Source: an endosymbiont of Galathealinum brachiosum (GTDB lineage: Bacteria > Pseudomonadota > Gammaproteobacteria > SZUA-229). From it: a stretch of DNA of 64,000 nucleotides. The translations under genes were made by a program, and so were the position numbers. The notes beneath the pieces were generated by a model. It did not search any database, was not told the DNA's origin, and was given only the letters and a program-made list of their open reading frames with translations. The stretch covers positions 682,001 to 746,000 of the forward strand of contig QFXC01000013.1 in assembly GCA_003349885.1 (NCBI GenBank), written 5' to 3'. Below are positions 56,202 to 58,186 of this stretch, piece after piece; the stretch's first letter is position 1; each line of letters starts with the position of its first letter.

Positions 56202-56738
56202 TTAACCCAGTGTACGATTATAACGATTAATACTACCAAGAATTTCTTCATGGGCACGATCTGTACCGACCCAGCTCTCAACTTTTACCCACTTTCCTGA
56301 TTCCAGTGCTTTATATTGCTCAAAAAAATGCGTGATCTGGCCTAACATATCATCATGTAAATCCTGAGGTGACTCCACATCATCATACAGTTTAGTCAGC
56401 TGCTTAACGGGAACCGCAAGTATTTTATGATCTTCACCTGCTTCATCCACCATTTCCAGCATGCCAATAGGTCGACAACGAATAACCGAACCAGAGATAA
56501 GAGGCACAGGTGTTACCACTAGAACATCAACCGGATCACCATCTTCGGAAAGCGTATGGGGAAGGAACCCGTAATTACACGGATAAAACATGGCCGTTCC
56601 CATAAACCGGTCAACCGTCAGCGTTCCACTGTCCTTATCAACTTCATACTTTACCGGCGGTCCATGAGCCGGTATCTCAATAACAACATTAATATCACGG
56701 GGTACATCTTCACCTAATGGGAGATTATCAAGATTCAT
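56202..56738 (-). CDS. ppa: Inorganic pyrophosphatase
   Basis: The 178-residue family I pyrophosphatase (E. coli 176) hydrolyses pyrophosphate to phosphate. It contains the metal-binding signature DGDPVDVLV, preceded by [12 protein letters not shown] and followed by [13 protein letters not shown]. The gene is divergent from adk, with 190 bases between the starts. It appears to be a single-gene unit. Confidence 0.96.
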
Positions 56739-56928
56739 ATGATTCTTACCTTATGATTGCAACTCATGAGAGTTTTTTCAGAATTATTTCTGATAATTTT
56801 GGATTATATCAAGAAGCAGCACCAGAGAATACTCGACATCTTCTGCGCATTGATTACAATCCCTTGACTATTAAGCCATTAATCTAGAAAAATCCTGAAC
56901 AACCTGTAACAGGGGGGAGAAAAAGGAT

Positions 56929-58128
56929 ATGAGACTCGTACTACTAGGGGCACCCGGCTCCGGTAAAGGCACACAAGCCAAATTATTAGTTGATAAATTA
57001 AATATTCCACAAATATCAACCGGTGATTTACTACGCGCAGCTGTAGAAGCACAAACGCCACTAGGCAGACAGGCCAAGACCATTATGGATGCAGGCCAAC
57101 TCGTTCCTAATGATCTGGTACTGGGCATGATTCGAGAACGCCTGAATAGCCCTGATGCTATGAACGGATTCATTCTGGATGGTTTCCCCCGTAATCTGGA
57201 ACAGGCTCAGGAACTAGACCAATTACTGACAGGCATGTCCATGCCAATTCAGAAGTCTATTTTAATTGACGTAGATTTCGATATTCTTATGCAACGACTC
57301 ACCGGACGATTAACCTGTGAAGACTGTGGCGAAGTATTTAATACCTTCACTAACCCACCGGCACTTGATGAAGAATGCGATAAGTGCGGAGGCAAATTAC
57401 ATCACCGCTCTGACGATAATGAAGAAACTATTGGTAAACGCTTACGGGTGTACGAGACACAGACCCAACCCGTTGCTGATTTTTATAAGAATCAGGGCAA
57501 ACTATCTGTAGTAGAAGGTAAAGGCGATATTAAAGATATCTTTGCCGACATGCAGAAAGCTTTAATCAGCGCTCGCCCTGCAACCGGTTTAAATTCAACG
57601 GCAACAGCTGAGCCAGTAAAAGCGCCAGAAGCAAGGCCGGCTCCGACTGAAATCCCAGTAACTGAAAAGCCGACACCGATGGAAACCCCCATAGCTGAAA
57701 AACCGGTGATTGAACCAGTTAAGACAATTGAGCCTACACCTGCTCCAGCTTCCACGAAAAAACCGGTTATCCTTAAGAAGACCAAACCAGCAGCCGGGAA
57801 AAAGACAAAAGTCAAAAAAGCAGTTACGAAGAAAGCACCTGTTAAAAAGGCTACAAAGAAAGCGGCTTCAGGCAAATCGGCGATTAAAAAGAAGAGCGCT
57901 GCAAAGAAAAAGCCGATTATTAAAAAGAAACAGAGCAAACCCGTAAGTGACCAGGACCTACTTAAGCAATTAAAAGCAGAGCTGAAATTAGTAAATGCTG
58001 AAATTACTTTAACTGAAAAACGGAACAAGACACTTACCAGCATTGAACTGAATAAGGACTTGATTCGTAAGCAATTTTCAGAAAAACTTCAAAGAGATAT
58101 GAAGAAAGCCCTGAAAAAAATCAAATAA
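56929..58128 (+). CDS. adk: Adenylate kinase with long lysine-rich C-terminal extension
   Basis: Residues 1-215 are a complete adenylate kinase (P-loop GAPGSGKGT, STGDLLRAAV, DGFPRNLEQA). The lid carries four cysteines (130, 133, 150, 153), which implies a zinc-binding lid like that of Gram-positive enzymes. Then follow a Pro/Glu/Thr-rich linker (about 216-276), a Lys/Ala-rich, histone H1-like stretch (about 277-337) and a helical, basic C-terminus (340-399). Normal enzymes are about 215 residues, so the gene is nearly twice the usual length. The frame is open and continuous, with strong codon usage. The tail might bind nucleic acids or polyphosphate; that is a guess. AGGGGGGAG lies before the ATG. 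Confidence 0.93.
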   Translation: MRLVLLGAPGSGKGTQAKLLVDKLNIPQISTGDLLRAAVEAQTPLGRQAKTIMDAGQLVPNDLVLGMIRERLNSPDAMNGFILDGFPRNLEQAQELDQLLTGMSMPIQKSILIDVDFDILMQRLTGRLTCEDCGEVFNTFTNPPALDEECDKCGGKLHHRSDDNEETIGKRLRVYETQTQPVADFYKNQGKLSVVEGKGDIKDIFADMQKALISARPATGLNSTATAEPVKAPEARPAPTEIPVTEKPTPMETPIAEKPVIEPVKTIEPTPAPASTKKPVILKKTKPAAGKKTKVKKAVTKKAPVKKATKKAASGKSAIKKKSAAKKKPIIKKKQSKPVSDQDLLKQLKAELKLVNAEITLTEKRNKTLTSIELNKDLIRKQFSEKLQRDMKKALKKIK

Positions 58129-58152: not shown

Positions 58153-58186
58153 GACAAAGGCCGCCCGCTATTAGCGGTCTTTGCCT
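58153..58186 (+). terminator. Hairpin after adk
   Basis: CAAAGGCCGC (58155-58164) pairs with GCGGTCTTTG (58174-58183), with one G-T pair, 27 bases after the adk stop. The T run is short and lies within the second arm. It is probably the adk terminator. Confidence 0.6.

Follow-up and report, generated by a model that had tools for sequence, protein, structure and literature searches.

An Adenylate Kinase That Continues into a Histone H1-like Basic Tail in Many Gammaproteobacteria

Adenylate Kinases and Basic Tails Described to Date

Adenylate kinase (Adk) is a textbook soluble housekeeping enzyme with a role in energy balance. The closest described enzymes to the one considered here are the zinc adenylate kinases of Bacillus and Geobacillus (1p3j, 1zin), which share its fold, its catalytic residues and a four-cysteine lid at about 48% identity, but which are tailless and end near residue 217. 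A second point of comparison is NCBIfam PRK13808.1 (335 positions; NF010381), a group of alphaproteobacterial adenylate kinases (our loci L240 and L241) in which a Lys/Ala-rich, H1-like tail directly follows the enzyme, as it does here; these proteins belong to a different Adk subfamily, however, and have neither the Cys4 lid nor a helix at the end of the tail.

Tails of this kind are better known from other proteins. AlgP of Pseudomonas, a histone H1-like KPAA-repeat protein, possesses a disordered Lys/Ala/Pro C-terminal domain of net charge +55; this KPAA tail has been described as H1-like, and DNA-binding peptides have been derived from it (PMC9239181). According to the same paper, the homologous domain of the phasin PhaF is believed to anchor granules to the nucleoid, and prokaryotic lysine-rich low-complexity regions have been associated more generally with binding of DNA and RNA (PMC6821194). 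In neither protein is the head an adenylate kinase: that of AlgP is a small helical domain with no enzymatic function, and that of PhaF binds PHA granules.

Architecture of the Tailed Adenylate Kinase

The window, by which we mean the whole 64,000-nucleotide stretch of DNA analysed, encodes an adenylate kinase of 399 residues in a reading frame with no internal stop codons. The features of the locus are as follows.

56202..56738, reverse strand: ppa-like soluble inorganic pyrophosphatase, a divergent neighbour kept in relatives
56912..56919, forward strand: Shine-Dalgarno-like purine-rich sequence GGGGGGAG, 9 nt upstream of the ATG
56929..58128, forward strand: tailed adenylate kinase, 399 aa plus stop, open reading frame with ATG start
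56929..57573, forward strand: adenylate kinase core, residues 1-215, from profile matches and catalytic residues
57316..57387, forward strand: Cys4 (zinc-type) lid with C130, C133, C150 and C153, from alignment and structure matches
57574..57753, forward strand: Pro/Glu/Thr/Ala linker, residues 216-275, net charge -2, predicted disordered
57754..57948, forward strand: Lys/Ala-rich H1-like stretch, residues 276-340, net charge +27, predicted disordered
57949..58125, forward strand: predicted C-terminal basic helix, residues 341-399, net charge +7
58165..58177, forward strand: downstream terminator-like hairpin, weak, since the count of such sites is about that expected by chance

Residues 1-213 match the Pfam families ADK (2.4e-54) and ADK_lid (1.3e-12) and pass the cut-offs of both PRK00279.1-2 (288.7 bits against 251) and TIGR01351 (251.4 bits against 168). 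The P-loop GAPGSGKGT is kept, as are K13, R36, D84, R88, R123, R160 and R171, and the solved structures nearest to the core are the Bacillus zinc-lid enzymes (1zin, 1p3j, 5g3y). The window protein is therefore best explained, as far as its residues allow a judgement, as a catalytically competent zinc-lid adenylate kinase. The four cysteines, which an earlier note on this DNA had singled out, are indeed present; because they are invariant across 17 aligned tailed cores and the same as in the Bacillus-type zinc lid, this part of the protein must be considered ordinary.

Beyond the core the protein changes character. The core has a computed net charge of -7 and a theoretical pI of 4.9, compared with a pI of 9.7 for the whole protein. 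AlphaFold2 returned the Adk fold for the core with moderate confidence from an alignment of only 12 sequences, gave pLDDT values below 50 for residues 218-337, and placed a helix at residues 341-398 with values of about 68-85. This end helix (341-399) aligns without gaps within the genus, and its amphipathic moment is borderline (p ~0.05). The earlier note's description, a full-length Adk running unbroken through a linker and a Lys/Ala stretch into a basic helical end, thus agrees with the reading frame, the profiles, the relatives, the computed charges and the structure prediction, and the likeness it saw to AlgP- and H1-type tails is borne out by composition and predicted disorder.

That likeness is one of composition rather than of demonstrated homology. 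The tail is predicted to be disordered, rich in Lys, Ala and Pro, and strongly basic, as are the AlgP, PhaF and HC2 types, but it is irregular where the KPAA of AlgP is a regular repeat, and it ends in a helix. The idea that the tail is homologous to some catalogued domain was rejected, since Pfam gave no match and NCBIfam only matches below threshold. The whole protein scores 195.1 bits against PRK13808.1 (cut-off 426), and 13.5 bits against the HC2 profile PF07382 (cut-off 40). The earlier note knew of no such tail on an adenylate kinase, a statement that does not hold, as PRK13808.1 already covers alphaproteobacterial enzymes with Lys/Ala tails; the PRK13808 subfamily acquired a comparable tail independently. 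The window protein joins an ordinary adenylate kinase core to a tail whose composition is of a familiar type, a pairing that the databases already list, without remark, for alphaproteobacteria. Our literature search, which covered openly licensed papers, found no description of a tailed adenylate kinase. Elsewhere in the same genome, an RND-type efflux pump (L148:1-1800; G000:C8 near 41366) ends in a short Adk-like tail, KKAAPKKKAVKKKA, a weak match and the only other similar tail found there.

Recurrence of the Fusion

Whether the core and tail are truly one protein is answered by the relatives. The adk frame continues into a basic tail in all four genomes of the same genus and in 33 of the 37 genomes of the family, the four exceptions having completeness of just 57-88%. 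A stop codon near residue 215 in close relatives, which the earlier note had named as the finding that would count against it, is therefore absent from all genomes of the genus and from 33 of 37 in the family, and the recurrence on adk that it had asked about is plain. Three artefactual origins were rejected: a frameshift or assembly join by the 33 family genomes that continue into the tail, a DNA repeat artefact by the lack of any tandem repeat found under the window's tail DNA, and a chance extension of the reading frame by the bimodal lengths and the charge of the tails. The continuous in-frame fusion is confirmed as real.

Beyond the family, a sample of 204 gammaproteobacterial genomes added many more tailed proteins. 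At a core identity of at least 57%, 71 complete tailed orthologues stand against 21 tailless ones. The length that follows the core is sharply bimodal: 55 sequences have 0-14 residues, one falls between 15 and 39 (36 residues), none between 40 and 59, and 74 have 60-318. The tails have a median length of 184 residues and a median net charge of +50. They occur in dozens of species and in many gammaproteobacterial families beyond that of the window, and among the matches listed, tailed records come from Thiotrichaceae MAGs, symbionts of Lamellibrachia and Lucinoma, Natronospirales and Steroidobacter; a search of plasmids found no similar tails. The tail is thus no local oddity, and a large share of the sampled gammaproteobacteria, including sulfur oxidisers, tubeworm and clam symbionts, Natronospirales and Steroidobacter, make their adenylate kinase as a strongly basic tailed protein. 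This suggests that the tailed species organise their adenylate balance in space, or else that Adk performs a further function while bound to the chromosome or to RNA.

What the Tail May Bind

With a charge of +30 to +110, such a tail would be expected to bind polyanions of any kind, among them polyphosphate, acidic lipids or membranes, and an acidic protein partner. A nucleic acid is the ligand we prefer, because of the comparison with AlgP and PhaF and the link between lysine-rich low-complexity regions and nucleic acids, and we give roughly even chances to the proposal that an AlgP/PhaF/H1-like tail tethers the enzyme to nucleic acid. In such a mechanism, the disordered lysine-rich tail would bind DNA and/or RNA electrostatically and without sequence specificity, and would thereby hold Adk at the nucleoid or at ribosomes and RNA; the C-terminal helix may provide a second, better conserved contact in the window's family; and the local balance of ATP, ADP and AMP, or the structure of the nucleoid, might be affected as a result. 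Running counter to this proposal, 21 orthologues manage without a tail.

Alternatively, the tail could bind polyphosphate and hold Adk at polyphosphate granules beside the polyphosphate kinases, where together they would form a module for exchange between AMP, ADP, ATP and polyphosphate. AlgP, with its similar tail, has been located on polyphosphate granules in Pseudomonas aeruginosa (PMC9239181), in E. coli polyphosphate is bound by lysine-rich disordered regions (PMC12345225), adk genes adjoin PPi-using genes, and the window's genome encodes both PPK1 and PPK2. However, two independent domain models find no PPK1 in 19 tailed genomes that are each more than 90% complete, and PPK2 is likewise missing from 13 of the 19, which makes polyphosphate unlikely as the general target; nor is PPK1 any commoner with the tail, being found in 22 of 39 tailed and 17 of 21 tailless genomes of a 60-genome set. 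We consider this explanation unlikely overall, though in the window's own genome, which has both kinases, polyphosphate is a possible target. The earlier note had suggested a tether to DNA, RNA or polyphosphate: a polyanion tether would still be the best reading, while polyphosphate is unlikely to be its general ligand, given the 13 genomes with neither kinase detected.

Active Enzyme or Altered Copies

In about 18 of the sampled genomes the tailed protein is the sole Adk found, in the sense that no further Adk is detected at E <= 1e-20, and it should therefore be a working enzyme there. The window's genome possesses a second, tailless Adk with its catalytic residues present. Altered tailed copies occur in other genomes that also have a second Adk. 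One (L209, genome G079) carries K13R, R36N and D84V; two from a single genus (L205 in G077 and L255 in G203) carry R88E; another (L214 in G111) carries G14D and D84S; and the weakest case (L204 in G164) carries G14R. These copies, which represent four lineages, have kept long basic tails, and each of their genomes also has another Adk with intact catalytic positions. They are likely tailed pseudo-kinases, to judge by the substituted residues alone, and the retention of their tails hints that tail and scaffold have a value apart from catalysis.

Such copies raise the question of whether the protein serves mainly in a structural or sensing capacity. It would then be a nucleoid-associated protein that senses adenylate levels through its Adk head, and for which catalysis is secondary and dispensable wherever another adk exists. 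The four lineages with altered catalytic residues, full tails and, in every case, an intact second Adk are what this predicts, and the fact that the only other similar tail found in the window's genome is the weak match on the membrane pump also speaks for it. Nevertheless, the altered copies are few, and catalysis must persist in the 18 or so genomes where the tailed Adk stands alone, so that we find this account unlikely. Unlikely too is a broader form of the nucleic-acid tether, in which a nucleoid- or RNA-associated Adk would use its head to report or set the adenylate charge in the immediate surroundings of the chromosome or ribosome, and would have become a non-catalytic, nucleotide-sensing architectural protein in several lineages.

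Gene Neighbourhood and Sulfur Oxidation

In the window's family the tailed adk faces ppa and a block of mrdA, rodA, mltB, rlpA and dacA, and in other families it adjoins pfp, frequently with hppA close by. Across 56 tailed loci, with gene names assigned by reading the neighbouring sequences rather than by family search, pfp is adjacent in 32, hppA is nearby in 26 and ppa is adjacent in 11; we take pfp to be the PPi-dependent phosphofructokinase and hppA the H+-pyrophosphatase. As tailless adk genes have the same settings, with pfp flanking 14 of 52 more distant ones, the neighbours do not explain the tail. In two loci, L142 (G006:C9) and L143 (G009:C17), a third, tailless Adk of 216 aa lies beside pfp, accompanied by hppA in L143, and in family genomes of this type the tailed gene is instead relocated next to the mrdA block and, in most genomes, to ppa as well.

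These neighbours invite a metabolic explanation, namely that the tailed Adk supplies AMP to APS reductase for AMP-dependent sulfur oxidation in the vicinity of PPi-using enzymes, with the tail as the scaffold of a metabolon. Consistent with this, besides the frequency of pfp, hppA and ppa at tailed loci, 23 of 39 tailed genomes encode aprA, compared with just 1 of 21 genomes with a tailless orthologue. Yet aprA is missing from the other 16 tailed genomes, its excess is inseparable from shared ancestry, there being just two independent contrasts on well-supported branches, pfp sits beside tailless adk as well, and a polycation is no obvious scaffold; we therefore think it quite improbable that this is what the tail is for.

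Selection on the Tail and Its Origins

In a tree built from 157 cores, the presence of a tail requires 6 changes, compared with 53 when labels are shuffled. Most tailed proteins cluster, but further tailed groups stand apart near Steroidobacter and within a Lucinoma-symbiont lineage. For the closest species pair, silent sites being saturated in most others, the core has a dN/dS of 0.06 and the end helix one of 0.11, compared with about 0.5 for the linker and Lys/Ala stretch, a pattern from which it follows that the composition of the tail is kept and its order is not. Moreover, the tails have a Lys/(Lys+Arg) of 0.81-0.88 whatever the GC content (r = -0.10), whereas in the core this ratio falls with GC (r = -0.68). 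By these comparisons the tail is selected for composition, with charge and lysine held while residue order drifts.

Neutral low-complexity expansion, by which the tail would have no selected role, might account for order and length that vary freely (76-318 residues) and for the near-perfect repeats in some tails (L125 and L214), but it is very unlikely given the constant lysine preference across GC contents, the lack of any sequence with a tail of 40-59 residues, the persistence of the tail in dozens of families, a tail dN/dS below 1 and an end helix conserved in the genus. In L255, part of the tail seems to be translated out of frame with the Lys/Ala repeat (RNQWPGKRRLLKRQLPRKRR) and is still strongly basic.
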